Source: Clostridiales bacterium (lineage in GTDB: Bacteria > Bacillota > Clostridia > Lachnospirales > Lachnospiraceae). From it: a stretch of DNA of 58,595 bases. Shown here piece after piece: positions 6,903 to 58,595 of the stretch. The notes beneath the pieces are model-generated. The model did no database searches, was not told the origin of the DNA, and saw only the letters and a list, made by a program, of their open reading frames with translations. Numbering within the stretch: the first letter of the stretch is position 1; each line of letters starts with the position of its first letter. The stretch lies in the NCBI GenBank assembly GCA_020860715.1, contig JAJBTU010000034.1:38267-96861 (forward strand), given 5' to 3'. The position numbers and the translations under genes were made by a program.

Positions 6903-6939
6903 GAGACAATTGCGTACATTTCACCGATTGCCATGCACA

Positions 6940-7086: not shown

Positions 7087-7113
7087 GTCACATATACATG
7101 CAGCACAATGGTC

Positions 7114-8502
7114 TTACCACGCAAACTTCTCCTCAAAGTACGCCTTCAGATCCTCAATCTTAATGCGTTCCTGCTCCATCGTATCACGGTCGCGCACCGT
7201 CACGGCGCCGTCCTCGGCGGACTCGAAATCGTAGGTCACGCAGAACGGCGTGCCGATCTCGTCCTGTCTGCGGTAACGTTTGCCGATGTTGCCGCGGTCA
7301 TCAAACTCACAGTTGTAATATTTGGAAAGTTCCGTGTAAATCTTCTCCGCGCCCTCGTTCAGCTTCTTTGAAAGCGGAAGTACGCCGATCTTTACCGGCG
7401 CGATCGCCGGATGGAAATGAAGGACCGTGCGCACGTCGCCGCCCTCCAGCGTCTCTTCATCGTAAGCGCTGCAAAGGAACGCCAGCACGACGCGGTCCGC
7501 GCCGAGCGACGGCTCGATCACGTACGGGATGTATTTCTCTTTTTTCTCTTCGTCAAAATAACTCATATCCTGGCCGGAGGTATTCTGATGCTGGGTCAGG
7601 TCATAATCGGTGCGGTCCGCGATGCCCCAGAGTTCGCCCCAGCCAAACGGAAACAGGAATTCAATATCGGTCGTTCCCTTGCTGTAGAAGCAGAGCTCCT
7701 CCGGATCATGATCGCGCAGGCGCAGCTCCTCCTCTTTCATGCCCAGCTTTTTCAGCCACTCAAAGCAGAAACTTCTCCAGTACTGGAACCAGTCAAGATC
7801 GGTGCCCGGCACACAGAAAAACTCCAGCTCCATCTGCTCAAATTCACGTGTACGGAATGTAAAGTTGCCCGGCGTGATCTCATTGCGGAATGATTTTCCG
7901 ATCTGCGCGATGCCGAACGGCAGCTTTTTGCGCGAGGTCCGCTGTACATTTTTGAAGTTCACAAAAATGCCCTGCGCCGTCTCCGGGCGAAGATAAACAG
8001 TGTTCTTCGCGTCCTCGGTGACGCCCTGAAAAGTCTTGAACATCAGGTTGAACTGACGGATATCCGTGAAATTGTGCTTGCCGCAGGACGGGCACGGAAT
8101 CTTGTGGTCTTCAATGTAGTCCCGCATCTCTTCCTGTGAAAACGCGTCGATCGGCTTGTCCAGCGTCAGGCCCTGCTTGGCGCAGAAATCCTCGATGACC
8201 TTGTCCGCACGGAAGCGCTCATGGCACTCCTTGCAGTCCATCAGCGGATCCGCGAAGCCGCCGAGATGCCCGGATGCCACCCAGGTCTGCGGGTTCATCA
8301 GGATCGCGCAGTCCACACCGACATTGTACGGATTCTCGCGGACAAATTTCTGCCACCAGGCCTGCTTCACGTTATTTTTGAGTTCTACGCCGAGATTGCC
8401 GTAATCCCAGGTGTTTGCAAGGCCGCCGTAAATCTCGCTGCCCGGATACACGAACCCTCTGCCTTTCGCAAGAGCCACGATCTTATCCATTGTCTTTTCC
8501 AT
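7114..8502 (-). CDS. glyS: Glycine--tRNA ligase (single-chain alpha2 type)
   Basis: Charges tRNA-Gly with glycine. The 462-residue protein is the homodimeric, eukaryote-like class II form: [22 protein letters not shown] near the N-terminus, class II motif 2 around [25 protein letters not shown], motif 3 around [14 protein letters not shown], and a C-terminal anticodon-binding domain ([19 protein letters not shown]...). [12 protein letters not shown] zinc-type segment is present. Start ATG has AGAGGAGATTATT upstream. It is the last gene of a co-directional run behind the lipoprotein gene, 73 bp away. No T-box leader is visible in that short gap. Confidence 0.96.
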
Positions 8503-8575
8503 AATAATCTCCTCTCCATCCTGCTTTGCCGGCAGCTGCCGGTCCCTGTTTTCCGGGATTTATACAAACCCGCCT

Positions 8576-9301
8576 TTATTCTGTATCGTACAGAATATAC
8601 ACACGGTTCGCAATCTTCTCTTCTTCGTAGGTCGTTTCCTCGCCTTCATACACCTTGCTCGAAGGAAGAATGAGCGCATCCTCTTCCTCCTCCTGCTCTC
8701 CGGTCGCATTCACGGTATCCGCAGAAATCATCTCGGCATTGGTGCTGATAAATGCCACCGCGCCATCTTCCACATGTACCTCCATCGGCGCCTGTACGAT
8801 CACCACCTGCAGCGACATATCCTTAAACACCTGACTGCTGCTCACTGCGCTTCCGCCGGCAGCGCCATCCTCCACCTGATAAAAGGACGCGTCAAACAGA
8901 TAGCCTTCAACCTGCGCGCCGATCGTGGAGCCGCTGTAAAATTCGACATTATTAAATTCCGCATAGTCTTCCGCGGATGAATACCAGAGTTTCAGCGTAA
9001 CAGACTGGCCTTCCGTCGTAAAACTTTCTTCCTTTATGGAGTCTTCGCCGTGTTCCGCATTGTAGGCAGTAATCTCCGAACGGATCATGTCCTCCAGCTC
9101 GCTCACATCATAATAGGACTCTTCCAGTGTATCCTGTACGATCTCCGTCACACTTCCGTCTGCCGCAATCGATATCGCGTCCGCCTCCTGCGGCGTCCAC
9201 GCCGTCCCCCCTTCAAGAAGCTGTTCCACCTCACTGCAGCCGCCAAGCAGCGTCACTGCCGCTAAAAGCGCTGCGGCCGCGGCTCTTCTTTTCGCTGTCA
9301 C
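8576..9301 (-). CDS. Putative lipoprotein of unknown function
   Basis: I chose a GTG start at 9301 because AAGGAGG lies six bases upstream (9308-9314). It gives 241 residues opening MTAKRRAAAAALLAAVTLLGGC, a lipoprotein signal with lipobox LLGGC and Cys22. The mature part has no family I recognise. It is acidic, contains YYDVSELEDMIRSEI and ends in an EEEE-rich stretch followed by ANRVYILYDTE. It is presumably tethered to the outer face of the membrane. It lies between recO and glyS in one orientation. The upstream ATG-containing extension lacks a ribosome site. Confidence 0.75.
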   Translation of the reverse strand: MTAKRRAAAAALLAAVTLLGGCSEVEQLLEGGTAWTPQEADAISIAADGSVTEIVQDTLEESYYDVSELEDMIRSEITAYNAEHGEDSIKEESFTTEGQSVTLKLWYSSAEDYAEFNNVEFYSGSTIGAQVEGYLFDASFYQVEDGAAGGSAVSSSQVFKDMSLQVVIVQAPMEVHVEDGAVAFISTNAEMISADTVNATGEQEEEEDALILPSSKVYEGEETTYEEEKIANRVYILYDTE

Positions 9302-9411
9302 CGCAATCCTCCTTAATAAATGACTCTCCCTTTTATGCCCCTGCCGGCACAAAAAACACAATTCCGATTTTTGCGTAACTTATAATATTATACAGGCAAT
9401 CTGCTTCGGTT

Positions 9412-10074
9412 TCAACTATTATTTGTCATCTGCTGCAGAATCTCAAGGGATTTAAAACTCCGGTCAATGGATATGCTGTTATAATAATCCTGCACCCGGC
9501 GAAACTCCCGGAACACTTCCGGCCGGAGTGTAAACTGGTACAGTTTCTGCATCGGTGCACGGATCACATAGGAAAGCGCATACCTCGTTGATTCCATGAG
9601 GCTGCGGTCGTTCGCCGCCTCATAGGGATATTCCCCGTTGATCACCATTGCCTTCATCTCAAAAACGCAGCGGATCAGCTCATTATCCGGCTCCTCCCGG
9701 GGCAGCGCACGAAGCGTCGCGTACAGAAGGTTCAGCATCCGGGAGGCTTCCAGGTTCTCCCTTGTATAGTATTCCGCAAGTTCCATAAAATAACAGGCGT
9801 AACAGGCCGCCTCAACATCCTGGCGCACTTCCCGGAAATACTCGCTGATCTCCGCCTGCACCAGCGTATACGCGTTTTTTCCCTCATAGACGGTAAAGCT
9901 GCCAAAAGCAAACGGCGTCGAGGCTGCGAGCAAAACACTGTTTGTCCGGCGCGCGCCGCGGGCAAACGCGGTAATCTTCCCGCGCTCCTTCGTTAAAAGA
10001 ACGGTCCGCCTGTCGTATTCCCCGGCCGGCACAGCTGACAAAACCATGCCCGTCACTTTCAGTGGATCGCTCAT
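9412..10074 (-). CDS. recO: DNA repair protein RecO
   Basis: Recombination mediator that helps load RecA through RecFOR. I place the start at 10074 (MSDPLKVTGMVLSAVP) because GGAGG lies five bases upstream and RecO proteins begin with this OB-fold strand; this gives 220 residues. An alternative is 10143, which overlaps the era stop as ATGA and would add a poorly conserved N-terminus. The body shows DRRTVLLTKERGKITAFARGARR, then YACYFMELAEYYTRE and the helical C-terminal half. The zinc-finger cysteines of some RecO proteins are not obvious. Directly downstream of era, the common Firmicutes order. Confidence 0.9.
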   Translation of the reverse strand: MSDPLKVTGMVLSAVPAGEYDRRTVLLTKERGKITAFARGARRTNSVLLAASTPFAFGSFTVYEGKNAYTLVQAEISEYFREVRQDVEAACYACYFMELAEYYTRENLEASRMLNLLYATLRALPREEPDNELIRCVFEMKAMVINGEYPYEAANDRSLMESTRYALSYVIRAPMQKLYQFTLRPEVFREFRRVQDYYNSISIDRSFKSLEILQQMTNNS

Positions 10075-10139: not shown

Positions 10140-11303
10140 TCATTCCAGTTCTTTTTTGTCATAGCCGAAATTCTTTATCATAAAATCGCTATCCCGCCAG
10201 TCCTTTTTCACCTTCACCCACAACTGCAGATTCACCGGTTCCTCTAACATCTGCTCAATCTCATAGCGCGCCTGCGAACCAATCCTGCGCAGCATTGCGC
10301 CCTGCCTGCCGATGATCATGCCCTTATGCGAGTCCTTTTCACAGATGATGGTCGCCTCAATATCCATGATCCAGTCCGATGTCTCCCGCACATCAATCTC
10401 GGCCTGTTCACGACGGCCCGCCGGATCCCAGCCGGGCTTTTTCCCGCCGGCCGCAGCGGATTCCTCCGTCTCCGCAGGCACGGTGCGAACGCTCTCCTGT
10501 GTCCCGGACGGAGCCTCCGTCCGGGGGCCGTGCTCATGTCTGCGGCGGTTTCTGCGCCGCACAGCTTCCGCACGGCTGTCCTTCTTTTTCTGACTGCCTG
10601 CCGGGCGTTCCTTCATCACATCGATGGCGACTGCGATGCCGTGAGGAATCTCATCTTCCATGCAGCGCAGCACTTTCTCACGAATCAGTTCCGCCACGAT
10701 CTGTCTCTGCGGCTGATCGGTCACCGTATCATCGTCATAATATTTCGGTCCGTATGGAAGGCAGCGGAAAATTGCCTGAATCACCTCATCCATATGAAGT
10801 CCGCGCAGCGCACAGACCGGAATCATATCCGCAAAATCTCCGGCATTTCCGGCATTGCCCAAAAAAAGTTCCCGGTACGCCTCCATGCAGGCCGGAATTT
10901 CTCTCTTATCCACCGTATCCATCTTATTCAGGATCAGAATCACCGGCACTCCGGCTCTGCGAAGCAGCTGCGCGATGTGCTGCTCACCCTTCCCGATATA
11001 TTCCCCCGGCTCCACGAGCCAGAGCACCACGTCTACCTCCCGCAGCGTCTGCTCGGCGGCTTCCACCATATACTCGCCCAGCTTATTCTTCGCCTTGTGA
11101 ATACCAGGCGTATCAAGAAAAATAATCTGTCCCTGATCTGAAGTGTAAACCGTCTGAATGCGGTTCCGCGTCGTCTGCGGCTTGCTCGACGTAATCGCAA
11201 TCTTCTGCCCGATCAGGTGATTCATCAATGTGGATTTTCCCACATTCGGACGCCCGATCAAAGTCACAAAACCGGATTTAAATTTTGCGTTTTCCTTTTC
11301 CAT
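10140..11303 (-). CDS. era: GTPase Era with an unusual insertion in its KH region
   Basis: Ribosome-assembly GTPase that binds the 3' end of 16S rRNA. Start chosen at 11303 (MEKENAKFKSG) by comparison with family N-termini; the GGAGG is only two bases away, so the start is not certain. 387 residues against a usual 300. The G domain is complete: GRPNVGKST (17-25), DTPG (64-67), NKMD (127-130). The KH GxxG loop is IIGRQGAML (330-338). About 75-80 extra residues (roughly 233-312), rich in Arg/Lys, then Glu/Ala/Gly, interrupt the sequence between DVMKERP and the WIMDIEATI strand. recO follows with a possible ATGA overlap. Confidence 0.93.
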   Translation of the reverse strand: MEKENAKFKSGFVTLIGRPNVGKSTLMNHLIGQKIAITSSKPQTTRNRIQTVYTSDQGQIIFLDTPGIHKAKNKLGEYMVEAAEQTLREVDVVLWLVEPGEYIGKGEQHIAQLLRRAGVPVILILNKMDTVDKREIPACMEAYRELFLGNAGNAGDFADMIPVCALRGLHMDEVIQAIFRCLPYGPKYYDDDTVTDQPQRQIVAELIREKVLRCMEDEIPHGIAVAIDVMKERPAGSQKKKDSRAEAVRRRNRRRHEHGPRTEAPSGTQESVRTVPAETEESAAAGGKKPGWDPAGRREQAEIDVRETSDWIMDIEATIICEKDSHKGMIIGRQGAMLRRIGSQARYEIEQMLEEPVNLQLWVKVKKDWRDSDFMIKNFGYDKKELE

Positions 11304-11406
11304 ATCCTCCGATATTCCCTGTCTCCCTCGTTTTATTTTCCCGCTCCTGTACGTTCTCATTTATGCTTTCGTTTTATCATCCCGTTTTCTGTTCCCGCAT
11401 CTTCGG

Positions 11407-14361
11407 TCAGGCGTCCGCCCCGCCAAGAGGCCGGACAGTTCCAAACAGTTCTCCTGCCTCCCGGATCTTTTCCTCATTGCCCACAACGCAGATCGCGTCC
11501 GCATCCAGCACAGCCTGCACAAGCGGCGCAAGCGCGCGGATATCCTCCGGCGTCGCGGAGAGGACTTCGTCCCGCTCCCTCTGAAGATCGTCCCCGGTAA
11601 TCCCGCCGAAATACGCGTTCAGAGCGCGTGCGCCTTTCATTGACGGCGTCAGCGGCACATCCAGATCGCCGATCGCGCCGATGATGTATTTTGTCATCTC
11701 ACGCTCATCGGCATCAAAATCCCGCAAATAAGCCGGAATTCCCTCAAATATCTGATTTGTCCCGCGCAGATGCGGATCCCGGTAAGAGACAAAGAATGCA
11801 TCGCCCCTCCGGTAAAATGAGCACATGCACCCGTACGCGCCGCCTTTTACACGAATATTTACCCACATATACTCATAGCTCATCAGGACCTTCAGAATGC
11901 GCAGCGCACCCGTATAGGGGAAGCCCGCGTTCCGGAAATTGCCCGCGCGCGCCACATACTGCACCTGCCCCGGTGTGGTAAAACCTTCGTTCTTCTTTTC
12001 GAGAATCAGCTTTCTGCCCGGAGCGCAGACAGCCGGCTGCGCGCAGACAGGCAGTTCTTTTGCAAACGCCTCCAGCGGTGCGCGCAGAGCGGCAAGCCCG
12101 TCCGCGTCGCTCGTCACACTGACAAAAAGATGTTTCCTGTCAAACACCAGAGCGGTCAGTTCTTTCAGCTTTGCCTTCAGCACTTCTTTTTTCTCATCAA
12201 AATGTTTCTCCAGATCCGCCGCCAGATCATAGAACGCAATGCCGCTCACCGCGTCATTGAATGCATCAAACTCAGACAGATACGACAGCGCCCGTCCCGA
12301 CGCGGCCTGATGTCCGGCTGCGCTTAACTGCATCGAAAGACGCGATTCCAGCTTCGCAAGAATCTCATGCAGCCGTTTGTCGTCGTCAAACTTCGAGGTC
12401 AGTATCTCCTTCGACATCTCCAGCGCATACGGCAGCTTCTCATAAAGGGTGCGCGAACGGATCCCCATAAACGACCGGATGCCGCCTGGCGTCTGATACA
12501 CGCTGATCCCCACGGAAATACCTCCCGTGTTCCCATTGATATCATTGTTCAGATCACTGTAGGAAAAATGCTCCGTATCCACCATGCCAAGCACAGCCTT
12601 CAGGATCCCGAGATAGCCCAGATCCTCTGCCGGCACTGCATCCGCGTCAAACAGAAGATCCAGATAGGAAATCCCGTTCGTAAATACATCATGGTGCAGC
12701 ACCTTCAGACCGTCCCAGTCATATTCCGTATTTTCAAGGGAGGCCGCTTTCTTTCCAATGTCCTCGCGGGTCAGCATCGGAATCTTTTCCAGATCCGCCG
12801 CCGGCGTCGGGGTCTCCTGAAAGGCGCGCAGCCGCGCCGTAGCGGCAATCGTCTCCTGGATTTCCGACTCGCTTAACGATGCCTTATAAACACGCAGCTT
12901 CTCTTTTTGCGCCGCATCCGTCTTTGCCGTCAGACCGCGCTCGGGCACAAGCGTCACCAGAGATACATGTGTATTGTCCAGCAGATAGGTCCGGATCAGA
13001 TCTTCAAAATAAGTGGATTCCACGCGCTCCTTCAGGGCAGCGTAAATATCCAGCTGCTTCAAATAAGAAAAAGCCGCGGTATCATCATAAAGCCAGGAGT
13101 CAAACACATCCAGACCATACATCAGGCCCTTCGGCGCCGTACCGTAATCTGCCTCACGGAAACGAAACTCCATGGTATTGATGCCGGCATAGAGCGCTTT
13201 TTTATCCACGCCTTCCTCCACAATGTTCTCCAGAGTCTCCCGGATCACGGAAAGGAAACGCTCTGTGTCCTCCTCATTCGCGTTCTTTGCGATGATTGAC
13301 AGATACGGCTGATAAATTCCGCTTTCGTATTCGCCCATAATGTCATTGCCGATCCCGGCATCAAGAAGCGCCTGCTTCAGCTTTGCGCCCGGCGCGGACA
13401 AAAGCGCATACTCCAGCACCGCAAACGCGTTGGAAAGCTCCGTATCCGTGCTTACCCCGATCACCGCGTTCCAGGCCAGATAGGTATTGTCCTTCAGCGG
13501 GTCTGTCTCCGAAATGGGATAGTTCCGGCTCACCCGGCGCATTTTTTCAAAAGGCGCCTGCTGCATCCTGCCCGGGATCCCGTCTGAGCCGTGATTGGAA
13601 GCCGCCTTTGACGTCTCCGCCAGCACACTTAAGTACTCCGCATCCAGCCAGTTCAGCCGCTCCTCCATATCCATATTTCCGTAAAAATAAATATAGCTGT
13701 TCGACGGGTGATAATATTTGCTGTGGAAAGCCAGAAAATCCTCATATTTCAGATCCGGGATGCACTGCGGATCGCCGCCGGATTCCACGCCGTAAACCGT
13801 ATCCGGAAACAGGCTGTTCATAATCTCCCGCTCCAGCACATCTTCCGGGGAGGAATAAACTCCCTTCATCTCGTTGTACACCACGCCGTTGACCGTGATC
13901 TCATCCTCCGGATTTTCCAGCTGATAACTCCAGCCTTCCTGCCGGAAAATCTGTTCATTCCGATAGATGTTGGGATAAAACACAGCGTCAAGATACACGT
14001 CCATCAGGTTGCAGAAATCCTTCTCATTGCAGCTTGCAATCGGAAACACCGTCTTGTCCGGATAGGTCATCGCGTTCAGAAACGTATTCAGCGATCCCTT
14101 TACCAGCTCGACAAACGGATCCTTCGCCGGATATTTGCGGCTGCCGCAGAGCACACTGTGCTCCATAATATGCGGCGTGCCCGTGCTGTCCGTCGGCAGC
14201 GTTTTAAACGCAATGTCAAATACCTTATTCTCATCATCATTCTGCAGTACCAGAATCCGCGCACCGCTTTTCCTGTGGCGCAGCAGATATCCGTCCGAGC
14301 GGATGTCTTCAATCCATTCATGCTGCAGCAGTTCATACTGTGGAAGTGTCTCCATATTCAT
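11407..14361 (-). CDS. M16C (presequence-protease-like) zinc metalloprotease
   Basis: 984-residue two-lobed insulinase-family peptidase. The inverted zinc motif HxxEH is seen in GTPHIMEHSVLCGS (about residues 60-74), with the downstream metal ligand in NEMKGVYSSPEDVLERE. Further M16C features are KGSLNTFLNAMTYPDKTVFPIAS and the C-terminal half with RVKGGAYGCMCSFYRRGDAFFVSYRDPHL. The family degrades unstructured peptides in a closed chamber; bacterial members are cytosolic, and no signal peptide is visible here. Start ATG has AGAAGGGATGGG upstream. It lies between the DUF1461 gene and era, co-directional with both. Confidence 0.93.
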   Translation of the reverse strand: MNMETLPQYELLQHEWIEDIRSDGYLLRHRKSGARILVLQNDDENKVFDIAFKTLPTDSTGTPHIMEHSVLCGSRKYPAKDPFVELVKGSLNTFLNAMTYPDKTVFPIASCNEKDFCNLMDVYLDAVFYPNIYRNEQIFRQEGWSYQLENPEDEITVNGVVYNEMKGVYSSPEDVLEREIMNSLFPDTVYGVESGGDPQCIPDLKYEDFLAFHSKYYHPSNSYIYFYGNMDMEERLNWLDAEYLSVLAETSKAASNHGSDGIPGRMQQAPFEKMRRVSRNYPISETDPLKDNTYLAWNAVIGVSTDTELSNAFAVLEYALLSAPGAKLKQALLDAGIGNDIMGEYESGIYQPYLSIIAKNANEEDTERFLSVIRETLENIVEEGVDKKALYAGINTMEFRFREADYGTAPKGLMYGLDVFDSWLYDDTAAFSYLKQLDIYAALKERVESTYFEDLIRTYLLDNTHVSLVTLVPERGLTAKTDAAQKEKLRVYKASLSESEIQETIAATARLRAFQETPTPAADLEKIPMLTREDIGKKAASLENTEYDWDGLKVLHHDVFTNGISYLDLLFDADAVPAEDLGYLGILKAVLGMVDTEHFSYSDLNNDINGNTGGISVGISVYQTPGGIRSFMGIRSRTLYEKLPYALEMSKEILTSKFDDDKRLHEILAKLESRLSMQLSAAGHQAASGRALSYLSEFDAFNDAVSGIAFYDLAADLEKHFDEKKEVLKAKLKELTALVFDRKHLFVSVTSDADGLAALRAPLEAFAKELPVCAQPAVCAPGRKLILEKKNEGFTTPGQVQYVARAGNFRNAGFPYTGALRILKVLMSYEYMWVNIRVKGGAYGCMCSFYRRGDAFFVSYRDPHLRGTNQIFEGIPAYLRDFDADEREMTKYIIGAIGDLDVPLTPSMKGARALNAYFGGITGDDLQRERDEVLSATPEDIRALAPLVQAVLDADAICVVGNEEKIREAGELFGTVRPLGGADA

Positions 14362-45847: not shown

Positions 45848-47656
45848 TCAGGATTCTTTCGCGTAGTCTGCTTCCGATTCCAATATCAGAACCTCTTTCC
45901 CGCGAAACGCAAACCCGTATTTCCGAACATTCTCGATCCCCCGCGCTCTGAGATCAGTCTCATATTTCTTATCCTCAATCTGCTTAAGCGCCCGCTTCGC
46001 AGTATCCTCCAGTGTTTCTTCCTTTTTCGGATCAAACACCTTAAATTCGATGATCATACCGTCCGATTTCCCATTTCTGGGTTCAATCGAGACATCATAG
46101 CGTCCGAAACCGCTCTCCCTGTTGGATGTCAGGATATGCGTGCGGTCCAAGTCCGCGATCAATCCCAGCGTAAATCCATGGTAAAACTGCTCCGCCGTTT
46201 CGCTTTCTGAAGCGGAACCTCCCACATCAAAAAAGCTGATCGTCCGGGATGTCACTTTTTCCATATAACGCTGCATCCCCTCCAGATTTCCGGCAAGCAG
46301 CATGCGAATAAATTCCGTGTACTCATCATATGACTCTGCAAACCATTTTTTTACCAGCTTCCGAAGCGCCACCCGCACTTCAAAATTCGTCAGCGCGATC
46401 TCATATCTTCCCTCCGAATACTCCCATTGCAGAGACGATTCTGCCAAAGTGTCCTGTGCCCAGAGAGACTCCTCATCCAGTTTCTGTCTCCATAGGGGAT
46501 CCGCATCAAAAACACTCCCCGATTCCATCAGGCTTCGCACGATCTTCACATAGCCGGTCGTCAGAAACCAGCTCCAGATTGTTTTTGAATCTCCTCGAAG
46601 CTCCGCGTAGGTGATCGACTCATCAATCTCTGTCTCAATGGTGCCGCCCTGCAGCAGGATCTCAAACTCATCCTTTATTTTCAGAGAGCCCTCCCGCACC
46701 AGATTCCCAACCAGCGCGTTTCCACTGGTATTCATCCAGTAAGGCTCCAGCTTTCCGCTTTTCAGGAAGTTCAGGATCGACCAGGGATTATAAATGTCCT
46801 TTTTCCTTCCAAACTGAAATCCGTCATACCAGTATTTTACCGCTTCTTTGCGGGCGGAAAATCCATAGATCTCAAGCGCGTCAAAAACCTCGCTCTCCGT
46901 AAAGCCAAAGCTGTCCTCATACTGCTCCGTCGTAGTCGTTACGACCGACAGATTGTTCAGGTCTGAAAAAATCGACTCCTGCGTAATCCTTGTAATACCA
47001 GTCAAAAGTCCCCGTCTCAGATACGGGTTGTCCTTAAACGCGGCGTGAAACATGCGGCGGATATACTTAATGGCTGATTCCCAATATCCTTCTGTATAAG
47101 CCTCCAACATAGGGGTGTCATATTCGTCAATCAGGATCAACACCGTCTCTCCATAATACTCATACATACATTGAGACAGAAACCGAACCGCGTCCATACA
47201 CTTCTCATCGCCTGCCTTTTGTGCCGTTATTTCTAAAAAATTTTCTTTCTCTGCTTCCGATAATTTATCCGATTCCAATAAATAAGAATGCTGCTCAAAC
47301 AGTCTTGCCAGCTGTATCTGCATGGCACGACACAAACTCTCATAGCTGTCCTGCTTCACGCTTGCCAGGCTTAAGCTGACCACCGGAAACGTGCCCTGCA
47401 TTGCCATGATTTCTTTTTCTTTTGAGATATAAAGACCGCCAAACAGCTCCGGCCGGTTCTGATACCGGACGGAAAAAAATGACTCGACCATATTCAAAGT
47501 TAAGGTTTTACCAAATCGCCGCGGCCTCGTGATCAACGTCACCTGATCCGCGCTTTCGTACCAGTCTTTGATAAAGCGCGTTTTATCAACGTAAAATACA
47601 TCTCTTTCGATGATATCCTCAAATTTCGTTATCCCCAGAGCGACTTTTTTCTTCAC
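45848..47656 (-). CDS. AAA-ATPase-like protein with C-terminal PD-(D/E)XK nuclease domain (first paralogue)
   Basis: 602 residues. GTG start at 47656 (MKKKVALGITKFEDII) with AAGGAGG seven bases upstream, preferred over an ATG two codons earlier. N-terminal PF09820-type ATPase: VFYVDKTRFIKDW, Walker-A-like ITRPRRFGKTLTLNM, Walker B VLILIDEYDTPMLEAY. The C-terminal DUF1703/PD-(D/E)XK region is FGRYDVSIEPRNGKSDGMIIEFKVFDPKKEETLEDTAKRALKQIEDKKY, with the D...ExK triad. These proteins are abundant in gut anaerobes; role unknown, possibly mobile-element or defence related. A paralogue lies at 51290-53002. Confidence 0.88.
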   Translation of the reverse strand: MKKKVALGITKFEDIIERDVFYVDKTRFIKDWYESADQVTLITRPRRFGKTLTLNMVESFFSVRYQNRPELFGGLYISKEKEIMAMQGTFPVVSLSLASVKQDSYESLCRAMQIQLARLFEQHSYLLESDKLSEAEKENFLEITAQKAGDEKCMDAVRFLSQCMYEYYGETVLILIDEYDTPMLEAYTEGYWESAIKYIRRMFHAAFKDNPYLRRGLLTGITRITQESIFSDLNNLSVVTTTTEQYEDSFGFTESEVFDALEIYGFSARKEAVKYWYDGFQFGRKKDIYNPWSILNFLKSGKLEPYWMNTSGNALVGNLVREGSLKIKDEFEILLQGGTIETEIDESITYAELRGDSKTIWSWFLTTGYVKIVRSLMESGSVFDADPLWRQKLDEESLWAQDTLAESSLQWEYSEGRYEIALTNFEVRVALRKLVKKWFAESYDEYTEFIRMLLAGNLEGMQRYMEKVTSRTISFFDVGGSASESETAEQFYHGFTLGLIADLDRTHILTSNRESGFGRYDVSIEPRNGKSDGMIIEFKVFDPKKEETLEDTAKRALKQIEDKKYETDLRARGIENVRKYGFAFRGKEVLILESEADYAKES

Positions 47657-47831
47657 GATCATCCCTCCTTTGAAAAGATTCCGGCACAGAAATCATTTAG
47701 CGCTTTTCTGCCATACAGTTCCTGTTCCTGATTCATTACATTTCATCTTTAACAGCAGTATAGCATACTTCCGGAAAAGATACTATCCTAAAAACTGGAG
47801 CGCTCTGCTCCTGTTCGTCTCAAAACAGGCC

Positions 47832-51289: not shown

Positions 51290-53002
51290 TCATTCCTTCT
51301 GCATGACAACCTTACACTTTTTCTTGTAGCACGCGATCCCGTATTTCAGGATGGTCAGCATGTCGTCCTCCCTCAACTCAGCTGTATAGTCGTTGTCATT
51401 GATCTGCCGTATGGCCTCTTCACATGCCTCGTCGAATTTTTCATTCTCCGCGTACTTTACCTCTATGATAATCCCGATCGACTCGTCCTCAATCTCAATC
51501 GCGATGTCATAATAACCTTCGCCTGATTCGCGGTTCGACTCCACAGACCAGCCGCTCTTATAAAAGAGGATTCCCAGCAGGATTCCGTGATAAAAATTTT
51601 CTTTAAACTCTTTCTTTACCGCAGTGTCCCGGATGCTGACCGTCTTATCCATAAAAGTTGTAAACAGACGTTCCACTGTGACGATATCACCATTCTTCAG
51701 GGCCAGACAAAACGCGTCTGCCGCCTCGCCGTCTTTTGCCACTTCTTTTTCAAAAAGTTTTAGGATAAACTCGCTGAAGATTGACCGGACTTCGGCATTT
51801 GGGATAACAAGTTTCACAAGATTCCCCGAAGATGCTCCGCTCTGTGTCAGATAACCGGTGGCGAACAGCAGGCTCCACATGTTTTCAATCGAATTGTACA
51901 TTGTGTCATAGGTAAGCTGTTCTTCTATCTTTTTCTGCACAGCCTGTCCGGCAAGCAGACGCTCGATCTGTGTCTTTGTCACGTCGTCTCCCAGCCGTTC
52001 GATGAACCTCCGCAGTTCATTATTTCCGCTGGAATTCGCCCAGTAGCTTTTCGGCGTTTTATCCGGATAAGTAAGCAGCTGCTCACACCAGTTAATCACA
52101 TCCCACGGGTTATACACATTCGCCTGAGCGACCTGATATCCATCATACCACTCTTTTGTCACTTCATAATATTCCGACAATCCATATGCATCCAGCATTT
52201 CTCGGACTTCTTTATCTGTGAACCCAAAGTATTCGTCACATCTGGCGTCAAGAAGTGTGTACATTTTCAGATTATTCAGCCCCGTGAAAATGCTCTCCTT
52301 CGACACTCTGAGACAGCCTGTCAGGACTGCAAAATACAGATTTTCATTGCTCTTGAGCGCGGAATCAAACATAGCACGGATAATACTGGTCATTTCCTGA
52401 TAGTATCCATTCTCATTTGCTTTTGCAAGCGGCACGTCGTATTCGTCTATCAGGATAATCACCTTTTTTCCGTAATGCTTTCTAAGGAGCATGGACAATG
52501 TGTTCAAGCTCGCTGTCACCACGGCTTCCGGAATCGCAAATACTCCCTGATTTGTCTCATCATATCGAATCAGCTGACGGTACAATCCTTTCTCGTCCTC
52601 ATTCAGTCGGGGACTTTCCAGAAGAAATCGAAACCGCAGGGCTTCTTTTCCGATGATCGTACACAATTCGGACAGGGCCCTGTCATAACGGTTTGCGTGA
52701 ACGGTCTTTAAGCTGAGGGATATCACAGGATACTGTCCCAGATATTTTTCGCACAGTTCCGTTTCCTGTGAAATAGCCAGCCCATCAAACAGGCTTTTGT
52801 CTGTCCCAAGTTCAAAGAAGTGTTTGAGCATACTCATATTAAGGCTTTTGCCGAATCGGCGCGGACGGGTAAAGAGATTGACCTCTCCCCAGTTGTTTAA
52901 CAGGTCTTTTATCAATCCTGTCTTATCAACATAGTAAAAGTCATTTGCCCGGATTTTCGCAAAATCGTCTATGCCGATCGGCATGCTTTTTTTACAGATC
53001 AC
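51290..53002 (-). CDS. AAA-ATPase-like protein with C-terminal PD-(D/E)XK nuclease domain (second paralogue)
   Basis: 570 residues. GTG start at 53002 (MICKKSMPIGIDDFAKIR) with AGAGGTG six bases upstream; a GTG at 53011 is possible. FYYVDKTGLIKDLL, Walker-A-like LFTRPRRFGKSLNMSML, Walker B KVIILIDEYDVPLAKA, C-terminal GEGYYDIAIEIEDESIGIIIEVKYAENEKFDEACEEAIRQINDNDY (D...ExK). Same architecture as the protein at 45848-47656 but clearly diverged, so not a recent duplication. Own promoter and terminator. Confidence 0.88.
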   Translation of the reverse strand: MICKKSMPIGIDDFAKIRANDFYYVDKTGLIKDLLNNWGEVNLFTRPRRFGKSLNMSMLKHFFELGTDKSLFDGLAISQETELCEKYLGQYPVISLSLKTVHANRYDRALSELCTIIGKEALRFRFLLESPRLNEDEKGLYRQLIRYDETNQGVFAIPEAVVTASLNTLSMLLRKHYGKKVIILIDEYDVPLAKANENGYYQEMTSIIRAMFDSALKSNENLYFAVLTGCLRVSKESIFTGLNNLKMYTLLDARCDEYFGFTDKEVREMLDAYGLSEYYEVTKEWYDGYQVAQANVYNPWDVINWCEQLLTYPDKTPKSYWANSSGNNELRRFIERLGDDVTKTQIERLLAGQAVQKKIEEQLTYDTMYNSIENMWSLLFATGYLTQSGASSGNLVKLVIPNAEVRSIFSEFILKLFEKEVAKDGEAADAFCLALKNGDIVTVERLFTTFMDKTVSIRDTAVKKEFKENFYHGILLGILFYKSGWSVESNRESGEGYYDIAIEIEDESIGIIIEVKYAENEKFDEACEEAIRQINDNDYTAELREDDMLTILKYGIACYKKKCKVVMQKE

Positions 53003-53047
53003 ACTGCTCACCTCTGCTTTCAGATCAATGATTCAGTTTGTGCTGTA

Positions 53048-53076
53048 ATTATACCCTTATCTGTGTTTCTTCTCAA
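53048..53076 (-). promoter_or_regulatory. Sigma-A promoter of the second AAA/PD-(D/E)XK gene
   Basis: -35 TTGAGA (53071-53076) and -10 TATAAT (53048-53053), 17-bp spacer. It sits right behind the dikinase-B stop; I see no terminator between them. Confidence 0.8.
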
Positions 53077-53149
53077 CCTAAATTTGATTTTTGCATATTT
53101 ATTTTTCGTTATTTTTTGCAGAGTTCACATTTATGAAACTGGCCTGCTA

Positions 53150-55072
53150 TCATTCACCAGCGTTTTTCTTTAATAGCGTGCAATAATCACTTGTATCAAG
53201 AGTACACATTGCGCCATTTGGATATCTTTTTTTATCAAATTTTCCAATTTGTACCGCAGGGATATGTTTTTCTCTCAAAATAGATGTCAGATGACACAGA
53301 ACCGGACTCTTTTCAAAGACAAAGCCAATTCTTTGTGGGGCATATTTTTCGATAATCACCCGCAATGAAATCTCCGGCCTTGGGCAGAAAAAGATTGCCG
53401 GTAGATCTGTGTCAAAATTCTCACAGGAATCAGGAGTCAGATATCTGACCTTCCCACTTATTCTCCCCCGCGATAAAATACCGGTATTCACATCCCGTGA
53501 GCATATGCTGTCTGCAGAATCTTCATCGGACAAATCTATAAAATATGGAGTCCCCTTTTTCCCCCTTGTCGGATCCTCATGACTCCCTGCCTCACGAAGA
53601 ATACCAAACTCTACCGATGCGGAAAAGGTTTTTAGTACTGGATTAAAACAGTTTATCAGGTCAAATAATTCCTCATCCTGCAGGGATACCAGAGAATCCG
53701 TATTATCATTACAAATACAATACAGGACATGTCCTTCAATTATCTTATACCAGGAATTCTGCCGCTGCTCTTTACGAATGCGGATTTCTCTGTCTGTTAT
53801 CACATACTGGCTTGCTGACATTAACCCCTGCGTAACAAAACAGCCCCTGATCAGTTCAATCAGATAACCATCCTCTAGTTTTCGGATTATCCCCGTATAT
53901 ATTGGATCGTATACCTCCTGTATCATGAAACAGTTAACCCAATATTGCTCTTTTGCGTTTTTGCCAATTTTTCGCAGACACTCCTCTATATTTTCATAAT
54001 CCGGAAAAGTTCGGATGCCATACCTGCAGCAGTCTCTTACATTTCCCAGGACTTTTTTCTTATCGCCAACAGGAACCGGATGCAACTGTTTTTCGTTGAA
54101 ATCCGTAGAAAGTTTCACGATACTATAGCCCTTGCAGTCCTGGCTCCTTTCCAAAATACAAGGCTCATCCTTGTCATTTTCACTGCTCTCAACACCATCC
54201 ACATATAGCCAGATATCAGGAAACCTGATATGATTTTGTTTCAAGGTTTCCCATAATTTTATCCGTCTTTTCCCTGCAAATCTTTCTTCTATACTCTCTG
54301 GCTGCTGCTTAACAGAAATCCATCTACTTTCTACATTTGTAATGCTGGATATCGGACGGCACTGCAGGAAAAAAAGTTCGTTCTCCTGCACCGCCCATTC
54401 CACATCAACCGGATAATTCAGGATTTTTTCCAATGTCTTCACTCGTGAGCAGATAGTTGTAATCATATCTTTTGAAACAAAATCAGGCAGGTCTTCTTTT
54501 ATCTGGAATGTTCCATTCAAAGGTGAAACAGAAAGTTCCATTCCCAGTTCTGAACCTTCTGCAAGTTTTTCTCCCGTTCCTTTCACAATGTTAATTACCA
54601 TTTCCATCCTGCAATCTGTCACCGGATTTGACGAAAACGCAATACCCGAATAATCCGCGATAATCCTGTCCTGCAGAATTATGCCCATTTTTGTATTTGC
54701 AGTATCTGAATTATGCATATCTGACTGTTTTCTTATACTTTTCAGTACAGTTTTTATCGCTTCAATGAGTTGTACAAATGTAAAATCCCCCATCACAGTT
54801 TCATAATATCCGCTCCGGCTCTCTTTCAAGCTGTCTTCATCTGTGGCTGATGAACGGACAGCCATCCTGTAGATCCCATTTTTCTCAAAACGGCAGCACT
54901 TCTCAAGCAGAAGATTCCATTCAACATCAAATACCTCCACAGAATCACAAGCCTCAACCACAATGCTTCCGGGAATCCGATACCCCATTTTATTCAGCAT
55001 GGAAAGGCCGGCGGCTTTCTGGCCAAAAACAGCCGCATCGTCTGCATCAATAATTTCAACAATCCTCAGCAC
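53150..55072 (-). CDS. PEP-synthase-like dikinase/phosphotransferase B
   Basis: 640 residues. GTG start at 55072 with GGGAGG eight bases upstream, overlapping the previous gene by 17 bp. N-terminal ATP-grasp (PPDK_N type): FGQKAAGLSMLNKMGYRIPGSIVV, MAVRSSATDEDSLKESRSGYYETV (70-93), SGIAFSSNPVTD, and PVDVEWAVQENELFFLQCRPIS (about 220-243). The central about 250 residues match dikinase A (YWVNCFMIQEVYDPIYTGIIRKLEDGYLIELIRGCFVTQG). The C-terminal swivel segment KSPVLCHLTSILREKHIPAVQIG carries His594. No PEP-binding TIM barrel. The layout resembles rifampin phosphotransferase and truncated PEP synthases. It probably moves phosphate from ATP through His to an unknown acceptor (inference). Confidence 0.8.
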   Translation of the reverse strand: MLRIVEIIDADDAAVFGQKAAGLSMLNKMGYRIPGSIVVEACDSVEVFDVEWNLLLEKCCRFEKNGIYRMAVRSSATDEDSLKESRSGYYETVMGDFTFVQLIEAIKTVLKSIRKQSDMHNSDTANTKMGIILQDRIIADYSGIAFSSNPVTDCRMEMVINIVKGTGEKLAEGSELGMELSVSPLNGTFQIKEDLPDFVSKDMITTICSRVKTLEKILNYPVDVEWAVQENELFFLQCRPISSITNVESRWISVKQQPESIEERFAGKRRIKLWETLKQNHIRFPDIWLYVDGVESSENDKDEPCILERSQDCKGYSIVKLSTDFNEKQLHPVPVGDKKKVLGNVRDCCRYGIRTFPDYENIEECLRKIGKNAKEQYWVNCFMIQEVYDPIYTGIIRKLEDGYLIELIRGCFVTQGLMSASQYVITDREIRIRKEQRQNSWYKIIEGHVLYCICNDNTDSLVSLQDEELFDLINCFNPVLKTFSASVEFGILREAGSHEDPTRGKKGTPYFIDLSDEDSADSICSRDVNTGILSRGRISGKVRYLTPDSCENFDTDLPAIFFCPRPEISLRVIIEKYAPQRIGFVFEKSPVLCHLTSILREKHIPAVQIGKFDKKRYPNGAMCTLDTSDYCTLLKKNAGE

Positions 55073-55639
55073 TATGCATACCTCCCGCTGCAGCTTTACT
55101 GCGTATTCTCAAATCTATACCGTTTTCACGTACATATGTAAATACATACTCCGGCACCAGTTCTTTCCATGATTCGCCAGCTGCAATCCGTTCCCTGACT
55201 TCCGTTCCACTTGTAATCCGCTGCTCATTACTTCTTTCCCACATCACTTCTACATGACATCCCAATTCTTCCAGAACCTTTTTTTCCGTATTCCCCATTG
55301 GTCATATATTGTCATATAAAACCTGGCATCCATCGGAACATAATTTCGCAATAGATCCGGATAGTTAATTGGAAAAGGAACAATATCAAATTCCTGCAGT
55401 GAAATGCCATTTTCCAGCATGGAACCGCGGATCATCTGAAAGCGCTCATAATAGGTCAAAGGATTGGCCAATGGCATTGAGCGGTGCGGCGCCGCATCTG
55501 AATAATTTGTCAGGCTTATATCAGGATTTGCGATACCTATAATCAGATACTTGCACCGTTTTTTCCCTGCTAAAAGATATTCCATGTGCCCTTTATGAAG
55601 CATCTGGAACCTGCCATGAATGACGCCAACGCTATCCAT
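55056..55639 (-). pseudogene. NMNAT-type nucleotidyltransferase gene with a one-base frameshift
   Basis: The first frame (ATG 55639, AGGAG seven bases upstream) gives VGVIHGRFQMLHKGHMEYLLAGKK, with the GRFQ and HxGH-type nucleotide-binding motif, and runs to FYMTIYDQWG. The next frame, entered at the G run rc 55293-55296, continues NTEKKVLEELGCHVEVMWE...RITSGTEVRERIAAGESWKELVPEYVFTYVRENGIDLRIR, with the SGTxVR motif of archaeal-type NMN adenylyltransferases. One extra G (W-G-N) would restore a protein of about 195 residues. It may be a real inactivation, a slippery or phase-variable site, or an assembly error. It lies between the two dikinase genes and overlaps the second. Confidence 0.8.
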
Positions 55640-55655
55640 CGTTCTTCTCCTCATA

Positions 55656-57542
55656 CTACATTTCAAGTAGCTTTTCTTTACTTTCTGTATCCAGCCGGTA
55701 GCAACCGTTTGCCTTCAGATCTCTGCCGTCAAAGCCTGTAATTGCCGGAATTCCCTTCTCCCTTAAGAGGAGTGAAAAATGGCAGAGCGCGGAGCCTTCC
55801 TTAAACACAAATCCAATGGAGCCTGGATCATACTTATTTAAAATCCCGGCAAACTCAATACCCGGCATCTCCGCATAAAAGATACACGCTTCATCATGGA
55901 TATCCTGAGACGACATCTCATTATACAAATGCATTTCCAACGCCTGATTTCCCAGATCTGACTGGAGGAATACCAGTTTCCCGGTACGTCTTCCCTTTGA
56001 TATTACTCCTTCTCGCAAACTTCCTGCCGTCATGTCAATCTTCCCTTTTTCCCTGGTGCAATCAATCAGGTACGGCTGGCATTTTTCTGATTTCAACAGG
56101 CCAAATTCAATAATTGTACCTTCATCCGCCAATGCCTGGAATGTATTTACAATTACCGTCACTGCGTCCTCCGCAATTCGTATCCATTTTGGTTTTCTCG
56201 GATTGCAGGTATACTGAATGACATTACCTTCTACAATTCCCTTATACGACCAGCATGGCACTTCTTTGGAATAGGTCACATTTCCTTCCATATCGCAAAG
56301 ATACCTTGAAATCGGTGCGGCCCCTTTCGGTAAAAAATGACCTTTCCCAATTTCAATGACATATCCATTTGGCAGCCTGCATAAACTTCCGGTATAAAGC
56401 GGTTCATATATTTCCTGTATAATCACAGAGCAGGCCCAGTATTTCCCCTGAATTCTCTTATAATAATCCCTCAGGCAGTCATCAATTGTTTCATATGGGC
56501 TAACCCGAATAATTTCAGACTGTACGTCCATCTCCTCTTCCACATAAGCTTCACTATTACCTACAAAACTTCGCAAAACCTTTCCCTTATCTCGCTTTGG
56601 GAACGTCATTACTACGCTGTAGCCTCTGCATTTATCACTTCTGGGAATTTTTCCTGTCTTTACAGGGATTTCCGGCTCGACACATTTACAAGCCAGCAGA
56701 AACGCATCTGAAATCGGAATGCCCAGTTTTTGTGCCTCCAGGCGCAGTTGTACCTTGTCACTTAGCATCAGGAATTCCGGTACTGCCCCGCACATCTTTT
56801 TGTGCACTTTATATATTCCATCCTGCTTTGGAAATATTCCTGTCACAGGTCTGCACTGCAAAAAATATAATCTGTTTTTTTTTCTGGATATACACCATTC
56901 AATGTCTACCGGCCGTGCAGCTTTCTTTTCAGTATACCGGCTTTTCATCAATAGTTTATACAAATTCAGCTTATCGATATTTACTTGATAATGTGGCAGC
57001 TTTATCCATTTATCTACATTATAAATAAGACTTTCTCCTGTTCGGAACCCTTCCATGAGATTCTGATTTTTTCCATTCACCATATTTATATTAATCTGAT
57101 TTTTTTTCGCATTAAGGGGATTGGAAGAAAACAGAACACCTCCGGACGTAGAATCTATCATTTCCTGTACAATAATTCCAATTTTATTTCCTCTTGCCTC
57201 TTTCAGAACCTCAGAGATCGCATCCACCAAGTGGTCGGAATCAATGTCCAAAAAACTGGTATAACTTCCCGCCATGCTGGAATACTCCCCGTCTTCATCC
57301 AATGCGGAAGATCGTACGGCAAACCGATTACATCGCTTTAGCTTTTTATTTATATGGTACCACATTTTTTCCATAAATTTCGGATTCTGGATCTGATCCA
57401 TTATGTTTTCATAATTCATCGCAGGAAGAAAAATCGCTCTGGGAACCCTTATCTTATTTCCATACAGCCAGTTTAACCAGAATGCCTTCCTGCCATATAT
57501 TTCTTTTTCAACGACCTGTCCCAACTCTTTTATTTCTTCCAT
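55656..57542 (-). CDS. PEP-synthase-like dikinase/phosphotransferase A
   Basis: 628 residues, ATG after AAGGTGG. N-terminal ATP-grasp: YGRKAFWLNWLYGNKIRVP, RFAVRSSALDEDGEYSSMAGSYTSFL (73-98), IVQEMIDSTSGGVLFSSNPLNA (124-145) and PVDIEWCISRKKNRLYFLQCRPV (211-233). Central region: CRGYSVVMTFPKRDKGKVLRSF... YWACSVIIQEIYEPLYTGSLCRLPNGYVIEIGKGHFLPKG... GTIIEFGLLKSEKCQPYLID, which reads like a second, degenerate ATP-grasp. The C-terminal swivel GSALCHFSLLLREKGIPAITG holds His588. Shares architecture with dikinase B. Follows the radical SAM gene by 16 bp and precedes the nucleotidyltransferase by 16 bp, so one operon. More AT-rich than the backbone. Confidence 0.82.
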   Translation of the reverse strand: MEEIKELGQVVEKEIYGRKAFWLNWLYGNKIRVPRAIFLPAMNYENIMDQIQNPKFMEKMWYHINKKLKRCNRFAVRSSALDEDGEYSSMAGSYTSFLDIDSDHLVDAISEVLKEARGNKIGIIVQEMIDSTSGGVLFSSNPLNAKKNQININMVNGKNQNLMEGFRTGESLIYNVDKWIKLPHYQVNIDKLNLYKLLMKSRYTEKKAARPVDIEWCISRKKNRLYFLQCRPVTGIFPKQDGIYKVHKKMCGAVPEFLMLSDKVQLRLEAQKLGIPISDAFLLACKCVEPEIPVKTGKIPRSDKCRGYSVVMTFPKRDKGKVLRSFVGNSEAYVEEEMDVQSEIIRVSPYETIDDCLRDYYKRIQGKYWACSVIIQEIYEPLYTGSLCRLPNGYVIEIGKGHFLPKGAAPISRYLCDMEGNVTYSKEVPCWSYKGIVEGNVIQYTCNPRKPKWIRIAEDAVTVIVNTFQALADEGTIIEFGLLKSEKCQPYLIDCTREKGKIDMTAGSLREGVISKGRRTGKLVFLQSDLGNQALEMHLYNEMSSQDIHDEACIFYAEMPGIEFAGILNKYDPGSIGFVFKEGSALCHFSLLLREKGIPAITGFDGRDLKANGCYRLDTESKEKLLEM

Positions 57543-57558
57543 ATTATTCCACCTTCAG

Positions 57559-58509
57559 TCATTTAGGTCTCCAGACTTTCTCCAGTTCCAGAAGAAAATC
57601 AGAGTCAAGAAATCTCCGGAATGGGATCAATACATCATCCGTATTCTTTATCAGGCATAAACGAATGAAATAAATCCCATTCCGCTTTTCCAGTCTCAAT
57701 CCGTAAAATCCTTCCCTGCATTTCTCCCTGCATTCACAGTTTTCACAGACAGGCGGAAACATATATACCTGATTATTTTTTCTGGTCGACTTAACAAATA
57801 ATATCTCACCATCGTCATTGCCCATCTGGAGTGATGAATTCGATATCCCTTCAAAATCGACTGGACGTAGCACTTCGTGAAATCCCATTTCCCGGCACAC
57901 GTCATAAATGGTACTTCTGCTCCGTTCATTATCCCTGTCATTTAAATTCGGCAATAAATAAATATGGAACCGACTTCCTTTTCTCTGGACACTCCGCAGA
58001 GTTTCAAGTACATATTTCGTGTACGCAAGGTCACTGAACACTACCACATTTACATCCGGTTCCATCCCCAGCAGGTTCAATGTCCTGATATTGCCAATCT
58101 GGTTTTGCAAAAACTGATCCGATATCCTCATGCCCTGCACATATTCGACAAAAATATCCGGAATACTGATATTTACTTTTTTGAGACCATTGGAAATCAG
58201 ATTACCCCAATAGGCTTCCTCTTTCCTGATCGTCCCGTTTGTTGTAAGATATATCTTCTCTACATCTGTCTCTTCATGCAGGAATTGAATAAATTGCGGC
58301 AGCCCTTCATAAATTAATGGTTCTCCGCCCGTAATGGCAGCTGCATTCATATGCAGCTTACGAAACAGTTCTACGATATACTCCCTTAAAAGTCCATCCG
58401 GCGCCAGTTCCTCTATGTCCGCATCGCCTCCCTCATGATGGCAATAGGCACATGCCCGGTTGCACCTGCCGGTCACCTTTATACGTAACGGATTATCAAT
58501 TATTTTCAT
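57559..58509 (-). CDS. Radical SAM enzyme (MoaA-like core) with a C-terminal cysteine cluster
   Basis: 316 residues, ATG after GAGAAGGAAAAGGCTG. The SAM cluster motif CxxxCxxC is Cys16/Cys20/Cys23 (GRCNRACAYCHHEGG), with AAITGGEPLIYEGL (GGEP 61-64) and YLTTNGT. The C-terminal region carries C255, C258, C260, C264 (VCENCECREKCREGFYGLRL) and C285 (IRLCLIKN), spaced like an auxiliary 4Fe-4S cluster of MoaA/SPASM-type enzymes. Reaction unknown; such enzymes alter carbon skeletons of nucleotides, sugars or peptides. First complete gene of the right-hand operon. Confidence 0.88.
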   Translation of the reverse strand: MKIIDNPLRIKVTGRCNRACAYCHHEGGDADIEELAPDGLLREYIVELFRKLHMNAAAITGGEPLIYEGLPQFIQFLHEETDVEKIYLTTNGTIRKEEAYWGNLISNGLKKVNISIPDIFVEYVQGMRISDQFLQNQIGNIRTLNLLGMEPDVNVVVFSDLAYTKYVLETLRSVQRKGSRFHIYLLPNLNDRDNERSRSTIYDVCREMGFHEVLRPVDFEGISNSSLQMGNDDGEILFVKSTRKNNQVYMFPPVCENCECREKCREGFYGLRLEKRNGIYFIRLCLIKNTDDVLIPFRRFLDSDFLLELEKVWRPK

Positions 58510-58595
58510 CAGCCTTTTCCTTCTCGATAATTTTCAGTTCTTCCTGTACTTCCAGAAAAATTATTACTCAAACAGCCATTTTTCGCCATTTTCAC
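58510..58595 (-). other. Right window edge: end of an upstream gene or leader
   Basis: 86 bp. One minus-strand frame reads ENGEKWLFE then stop (58564-58566), plausibly the tail of the preceding operon gene, but it is too short to prove. Another frame stays open to the radical SAM start (LEVQEELKIIEKEKADENN). I cannot choose between them. Confidence 0.25.

Follow-up and report, generated by a model that had tools for sequence, protein, structure and literature searches.

A dikinase beside a PhpF-like nucleotidyltransferase: a possible two-enzyme activation module in a Lachnospiraceae operon

What could a cell make with a radical SAM enzyme, two phosphohistidine dikinases and a nucleotidyltransferase encoded side by side? 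The question is raised by an operon at the end of a contig of a Clostridiales bacterium (Lachnospiraceae; assembly GCA_020860715.1, contig JAJBTU010000034.1, positions 38,267 to 96,861), the whole analysed stretch of 58,595 nucleotides being called the window hereafter. Open reading frame (ORF) calling places the operon on the minus strand at 53150-58509, with genes for a radical SAM protein, dikinase B, a split nucleotidyltransferase and dikinase A. A first-pass annotation had described four tightly packed genes: the packing was confirmed by the ORF calls (a 16-base gap between the radical SAM and dikinase B ORFs, overlaps at the other junctions), and the radical SAM gene, both dikinases and the family domains stood, but the nucleotidyltransferase is not one ORF, its motifs lying in two frames. 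The answer proposed here, to which we give a probability of about 0.45, is that a dikinase and a PhpF-like nucleotidyltransferase would form a two-enzyme activation module, the former making a small P-X acid, where X is a small nucleophile, and the latter capping it with cytidine monophosphate (CMP).

The evidence that carries this reading comes from a survey of relatives. The dikinase alignment was too poorly conserved to serve as a genome-scan query; the species-genome collection was scanned with the nucleotidyltransferase alignment, which gave 138 confirmed places. The best 80 of these, together with the window and four plasmid loci and less one duplicate species, make up the 84 loci compared; L048, of the same species as L007, was left out of the locus counts, its genome being kept in the tests for phosphoenolpyruvate (PEP) mutase and SelD. 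Neighbourhood and cluster counts were taken from our own ORF calls, whose starts can be mis-set in high-GC loci; many contigs are short, and some of the 84 loci are cut by contig ends. A dikinase lies within 1.5 kb of the PhpF-like nucleotidyltransferase in 20 of the 84 loci, belonging to several phyla. Genes of the PhpG/enolase type, a cluster identified on representatives only, occur within 5 kb in 2 of these 20 and not in the other 18; 34 loci carry such genes without a dikinase, and 30 have neither. The full four-gene set was found at no other of the 84 loci, nor was a second dikinase in any other of them within the stretches examined. Thus the joint occurrence of the four genes, put forward as a check in the first-pass annotation, failed for the set and held for the pair: the four-gene unit is not conserved, and the dikinase and nucleotidyltransferase are its conserved core. 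Moreover, at E<=1e-50 a dikinase was absent from 48 genomes of the 64 whose PhpF-like gene has no dikinase neighbour, both of the two positive controls being found. Of 28 matches in plasmid records, four are full-length dikinases, from Treponema saccharophilum, Enterococcus gilvus and two Rhodococcus, and the gene immediately preceding each of them is annotated as adenylyltransferase or cytidyltransferase. Viral contigs yielded 19 dikinase matches, 17 of which are confined to the ATP-grasp part, and 14 short nucleotidyltransferase matches, and were set aside. No description of the dikinase and PhpF-like pair was found in open-licence PubMed Central papers.

Both dikinases were found to be built as had been claimed, that is, as diverged ATP-grasp/phosphohistidine proteins with no PEP barrel. 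Dikinase B (55656..57542, minus strand, 628 aa; PPDK_N 5.8e-25) and dikinase A (53150..55072, minus strand, 640 aa; PPDK_N 2.6e-26) share 30-31% identity, and each consists of an ATP-grasp part, a middle domain and a swivel histidine, H588 and H594 respectively, a residue invariant across the 15 aligned dikinase proteins. According to the alignment, both retain the ATP-grasp and swivel-His residues. No PEP/pyruvate-binding barrel domain of Pfam was detected in either at E<=0.1, and the PEP-utilizers domain was matched by dikinase B only, below the cut-off. The ATP-grasp part matches the 5fbs structure by profile, and the analogy with rifampin phosphotransferase drawn at the outset holds for the ATP-grasp plus swivel-His logic. 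Profile matches to solved structures stop at position 291, and the middle domain had no sequence match among them; its reading as a duplicated ATP-grasp is not claimed, a profile comparison of the parts having given probabilities of 1% and 19%. In the tree, dikinase A clusters with the dikinases of L039 and L040 (support 95).

The second partner is, judging from its sequence, a member of the PhpF family. Its N-terminal part (55250..55666, minus strand) carries GRFQMLHKGH, matches CTP_transf_like at 9.5e-8 and is 73% identical to the L034 homologue over 131 columns, while its C-terminal part (55056..55298, minus strand), in a different frame, carries SGTEVR and matches NCBIfam PRK01153 at 6.3e-8; both the HxGH and the SGTxxR-type motifs are therefore present. 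In a passage of PMC6697681, PhpF is given as a PF01467 phosphonoformate cytidylyltransferase. The nucleotidyltransferase tree, built with no NMNAT outgroup, includes members from Streptomyces viridochromogenes (L083) and Kitasatospora phosalacinea (L081), with 10 loci in the phosphinothricin-type clade, and dikinase and PhpG-type loci are interleaved in it and do not form two clades. S. viridochromogenes and K. phosalacinea are producers of phosphinothricin and phosalacine, and their members were assigned to PhpF on the strength of host and cluster and not of an annotation; they are 49% and 48% identical, respectively, to the Enterococcus homologue, and the PhpF analogy of the first reading is borne out.

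From the co-occurrence, the families and the conserved residues observed, we infer an order of reactions, the use of CTP, the nature of X and the fate of the product. In a first step, the ATP-grasp domain of a dikinase of the PEP-synthase/rifampin-phosphotransferase type would phosphorylate the swivel histidine, and the phosphate would pass to X in the middle domain, giving the P-X acid, AMP and inorganic phosphate (Pi). In a second step, the PhpF-family enzyme (the family being observed) would join the P-X acid to CMP from CTP with release of pyrophosphate (PPi), which a neighbouring pyrophosphatase-like DHH protein, present in 7 of the 20 dikinase loci, could remove. The third step would vary with the locus: tailoring by a radical SAM enzyme (6/20), PhpG-type transfer (2/20) or binding by a sensor of the phospholipase D (PLD) fold (9/20). 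The target of the window's radical SAM enzyme would be either X or the nucleotide. The dikinase would thus stand in for SelD, which supplies selenophosphate, or for the PEP-mutase route to phosphonoformate, serving other members of the nucleotidyltransferase family. As a first guess X may be sulfur or selenium, given the exchange with SelD and a cysteine desulfurase in three operons, and as a second nitrogen, by analogy with the glutamine kinase of Campylobacter.

A first line of evidence for the proposed exchange of donors comes from plasmids. In five of the seven Rhodococcus plasmids matched, SelD directly precedes the PhpF-like gene, the other two being dikinase loci. The five (L124, positions 5675-9871 of Rhodococcus aetherivorans pN1, L127, L141, L142 and L143) carry an acyl-CoA dehydrogenase, SelD, the PhpF-like nucleotidyltransferase and an alkaline-phosphatase-family gene, the last annotated as hypothetical in L127; no description of this SelD-linked set was found. 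A SelD-type gene with a Cys-x-x-Lys loop also precedes the PhpF-like gene in L102, L103 and L105, and lies nearby in L087. At the level of genomes, an evenly drawn sample of 392 from the window's order contained 9 PhpF-like carriers, the window genome and 8 others; SelD is absent from the former and present in 8/8 of the latter vs 122/392 in the background (Fisher p 7.6e-5 without and 5.0e-4 with the window genome), the eight belonging to one family and six genera and the background having been taken from the whole order, not the family. A phylum sample of 319 genomes added two carriers, one with and one without SelD. Among the survey genomes, SelD is over the cut-off in 25 of the 30 whose PhpF-like gene has neither dikinase nor PhpG-type genes nearby, vs 6 of 17 dikinase genomes, the three plasmid records L008-L010 standing outside these 17; with L087 left out, the contrast of 24/29 with the dikinase genomes gives p 0.003. 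SelD, dikinase and PEP mutase thus look like alternative donors, SelD not being exclusive to one class. In Oscillospiraceae and relatives, where the PhpF-like gene is an orphan, a scan of ten neighbours met mostly housekeeping-type or unknown genes, and no partner emerged.

Several observations weigh against the proposed module. We know of no dikinase-linked member with a known activity, the window's own nucleotidyltransferase reads as split, and the dikinase alignment has no invariant cysteine. The family and background of the order sample, as given above, limit the association with SelD. Furthermore, SelD is missing from 5 of the 30 genomes with neither partner and from G740, and is present in six dikinase genomes; it occurs in 13 of 16 PhpG-type genomes outside the gut clade described below, of which four were tested for PEP mutase and two of these four have SelD, so its presence alone is not specific. 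It was not beside the PhpF-like gene in the three haloarchaeal plasmids opened, of seven matched; a DHHA2 protein is encoded in one of the three, and in one a PEP/pyruvate-binding protein is encoded some 4 kb away on the opposite strand. Finally, SelD was found in 0/18 PhpG-type genomes of a gut clade (17 bearing the labels Clostridia, Clostridium or Eubacteriales and one the label Gastranaerophilales), and the 6 of these that were tested all lack PEP mutase, so the PhpF-like family also works with some further donor. Thirteen gut Clostridia loci (L043, L045, L047, L051-L053, L056-L058, L061-L063, L095) show a run of PhpF-like, PhpG/enolase-type and DHH genes, in many cases preceded by a LysR-type gene, in small genomes with no SelD and, in the five tested, no PEP mutase.

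The genes around the pair bear on the role of its product. Among the 20 dikinase loci, a PLD-fold protein lies upstream in 9 and the DHH protein downstream in 7; the DHH protein of L034 scores 135.9 bits against the NCBIfam manganese-dependent pyrophosphatase model (cut-off 283), and that of L010 has DHH and DHHA2 domains. A cysteine desulfurase follows in three (L007, L034, L065), PhpG and enolase-type genes are found in two (L039, L040), and a radical SAM gene occurs in six (the window, L007, L009, L060, L065 and L107), three of these being viperins. The radical SAM protein of the window (57559..58509, minus strand, 316 aa; Pfam PF04055 Radical_SAM 9.6e-13), with CNRACAYC and a C-terminal CENCECREKC, is MoaA-like: MoaA is its best NCBIfam model (86.8 bits vs a cut-off of 325.25), the viperin model gives 30.6 bits, far under its cut-off of 180, and a PADLOC pVip model is weakly matched (1.3e-8). 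No close relative was found in the other loci of the 84, and its gene had no plasmid match at E<=1e-12. As regards the PLD-fold protein, eight homologues of the ten in its cluster were aligned, showing a common C-terminal domain and varied N-terminal parts (hydrophobic helices, DUF4062-like, winged-helix/BTAD-like, BTAD being a sub-threshold Pfam match). In the L034 model, the ten-residue blocks of 101-284 have a mean predicted local confidence (pLDDT) of 66-95, mostly >80, residues 1-66 being <50, and Foldseek retrieved TrmBL2 as best match, TrmB and phospholipase-D-fold structures (best E 5.3e-6, query TM 0.3-0.4). Since a catalytic HxK is not evident, the model suggests a sensor.

The CMP-capped product may act against viruses as a nucleotide analogue, or it may be a second messenger bound by the neighbouring sensor, whose fused parts would be of membrane, DUF4062-like or SARP-like type. 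This concerns the role and is compatible with the P-X/CMP chemistry; an antiviral role is plausible, if on the doubtful side. It is favoured by the viperins in 3 of the 20 dikinase loci, two of which (Treponema and Sutterella) have an identical order of nucleotidyltransferase, dikinase, cysteine desulfurase and viperin, by the PLD fold and varied N-terminal parts of the sensor, by dikinase branches longer than those of the nucleotidyltransferase, by the lack of a match in 35 congeners, and by defence genes at three loci: IetAS beside L010, a type IIG restriction enzyme and a Snf2-type helicase beside L099, and NERD-UvrD beside L060. In part of the review PMC12288639, CMP-phosphonoformate is said to resemble antiviral nucleoside phosphonates. 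The defence scan covered ten hand-picked neighbours and then 123 neighbours of 19 dikinase loci, viperins being set aside before the count, with 122 of the 244 neighbours of 24 loci without a dikinase as control. A specific defence neighbour or a viperin was found in five of the 19 loci (six if the one PDC-S03 match among the 123, whose locus is not named in the tally, lies elsewhere) vs one or two of the 24 controls, whose neighbours included a type II/orphan methyltransferase and PDC-S01, and no significance is claimed. Matches to DndA/SspA, mad3 and WYL were considered generic; those to DndA/SspA and mad3 turned up in the controls as well. Against this role, PADLOC gave no match at E<=0.01 for either dikinase or for the nucleotidyltransferase's N-terminal half, no phage record matched the nucleotidyltransferase at E<=1e-6, and no sensor gene was seen in the window contig stretch examined. 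The repeated link with viperin makes an antiviral nucleotide worth testing.

A second alternative, which we consider unlikely, is that the window holds an acquired cluster that is decaying and serves no function in its organism today. The two halves of the nucleotidyltransferase overlap in a stretch with a homopolymer run, and the genome search also gives internal stops; each half, the one with GRFQ...HKGH and the one with SGTEVR, resembles intact homologues, which occur elsewhere. The gene being split, this copy may be inactive, dependent on slippage or misassembled. Other stop-interrupted PhpF-like genes were seen in L101 (9998-10569), in a 1.4-Mb metagenome-assembled genome of Bacilli, and in L139 (G740, 1.1-Mb, of the window's phylum). 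Decay would also fit the restricted distribution of the operon: dikinase B had no match at E<=1e-10 in the 35 congeners, and as a single-sequence query it retrieved nothing at E<=1e-20 from the remaining 391 genomes of the order sample; the operon was therefore probably acquired horizontally. Weak matches in two relatives of the window genome, G050 and G059 (33% across the ATP-grasp part), were taken as other PEP-synthase-type proteins. The AT-richness reported at the outset was reproduced, GC being 0.405-0.429 in the three 2-kb bins of 52001-58000 vs 0.463-0.583 in the preceding 26. Against decay, the reading frames of the radical SAM gene and of the two dikinases are uninterrupted, conserved residues are kept in the dikinases, and an assembly error could account for the split. 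Upstream of the radical SAM gene 86 bases remain before the contig, and with it the window, comes to an end, and the extension of the locus to the right proposed at the outset met no further sequence; in this remainder, possible final codons (ENGEKWLFE, stop; 58564..58593, minus strand, read from the sequence) of a co-directional gene, cut at the contig end, are too short to identify. Downstream of the operon, on the minus strand, lie two long genes with similar starts, at 45848-47662 and 51290-53011; the latter encodes AAA-ATPase_like and PDDEXK_9 domains, and the former resembles it by eye.

A fragment of a phosphonate or phosphinate natural-product pathway, in which the PhpF-like enzyme would use phosphonoformate imported or made elsewhere and the dikinase would phosphorylate another intermediate, is a little less likely still. 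In its favour are the kinship with PhpF, the PhpG and enolase-type genes adjoining the dikinase in L039 and L040, a phosphonate-binding protein gene adjoining the PhpF-like gene of L049, and PEP mutase in three dikinase genomes. The L039 protein matches the NCBIfam PhpG model (CMP-5'-phosphonoformate--3-phosphoglycerate phosphonoformyl transferase) with 626 bits (cut-off 545), an L050 ORF reaching 380, and enolase domains also occur in this cluster of neighbours. In L049, the gene at 10701-11603, for a phosphonate-binding ABC transporter protein, follows the PhpF-like gene; neither a dikinase nor PhpG lies nearby, and the genome has SelD. PEP mutase, however, is over the cut-off in 4/4 tested phosphinothricin-type genomes (in those of S. 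viridochromogenes and K. phosalacinea within the loci's contig ranges, if contig numbers correspond), in 3/17 dikinase genomes and in 0/17 others. None was found in the window genome or in 13 of the 16 other dikinase genomes, and 18 of the 20 dikinase loci have no PhpG-type gene within 5 kb. An ordinary phosphonate origin of the window operon is consequently unlikely, and of the earlier hypothesis of a nucleotide-activated phospho- or phosphono-metabolite, for which PEP mutase genes were to be looked for, the phosphono version is weakened by that absence, the kinship with PhpF standing. In wider terms, PEP mutase did not reach the cut-off in 31 of the 38 genomes with a PhpF-family gene that were tested, and the family extends beyond PEP-mutase phosphonates.

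A bolder version of the proposed module, which we regard as improbable, would make the dikinase a PEP-synthase-type sulfide- or selenide-water dikinase replacing SelD, the pair yielding CMP-thiophosphate or CMP-selenophosphate to be tailored by a viperin-like radical SAM enzyme and read by PLD-fold sensors in antiviral immunity; if true, this scheme would also account for a SelD-dependent selenium trait that is as yet unassigned. Least probable of all is NAD-related chemistry, in which the nucleotidyltransferase would be a true nicotinamide mononucleotide (NMN) adenylyltransferase and the operon would remodel a nicotinamide cofactor: archaeal NMN adenylyltransferases are the nearest solved structures (best E 8.6e-19) and their family is the first NCBIfam match of both halves, but these score 34.7 and 32.4 bits vs a cut-off of 127, the split lowering the scores, the family holds phosphinothricin-cluster proteins and SelD partners, and the earlier idea of nucleotide-cofactor modification gained no support.

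Compared with known systems, the proposed module borrows from several. From PhpF of phosphinothricin biosynthesis the window nucleotidyltransferase takes its family and its place in the tree, the differences being the lack of PEP mutase in the genome, the dikinases adjoining it instead, and the PhpG-type transferase/enolase neighbour, which was not found in the operon up to the contig end that cuts its upstream side, 2 of the 20 dikinase loci having both. Rifampin phosphotransferase and the HpeHI/PpsAB dikinases, described in part of PMC12167813, apply an ATP-grasp and swivel His to rifampin or phenols, 5FBS being the rifampin phosphotransferase structure; the window dikinases resemble them in these two elements and differ in a middle domain with no sequence match in solved structures and in having a nucleotidyltransferase as partner, while from PEP synthase and PPDK they differ in the missing barrel domain. 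In three other loci the pair has a prokaryotic viperin as its radical SAM enzyme; the window protein falls far below the viperin cut-off.

A parallel in logic is the capsule phosphoramidate of Campylobacter, for which part of PMC6429109 describes an ATP-dependent phosphorylation of glutamine to a P-N acid, N-phospho-glutamine, and a later cytidine diphosphoramidate-type intermediate. This L-glutamine kinase and its CTP-dependent step resemble the proposed module, a kinase-made P-N acid being followed by a cytidine intermediate, the likeness being one of described chemistry; the window operon differs in having no hydrolase or sugar gene. We take the glutamine kinase Cj1418 to be PPDK-like and the cytidylyltransferase to be Cj1416, presumably of another nucleotidyltransferase family than that of the window. 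SelD, which splits ATP to AMP and Pi, belongs to a family unrelated to the window dikinases and is absent from the window genome; in the Rhodococcus plasmids and other loci it stands beside PhpF-like genes. According to the portion of PMC5029168 on orphan SelD, that genome survey left a further SelD-linked pathway open, and the main text of two selenium surveys (PMC5322559, PMC5029168) contains no 'nucleotidyl' or 'cytidyl' term; the SelD-linked PhpF-like genes would be a concrete candidate for it. P-S compounds are, in the words of one section of PMC6429109, almost absent from biochemistry, and the dikinase and PhpF-like nucleotidyltransferase offer a pair of enzymes on which P-N, P-S or P-Se nucleotide chemistry could be tested.

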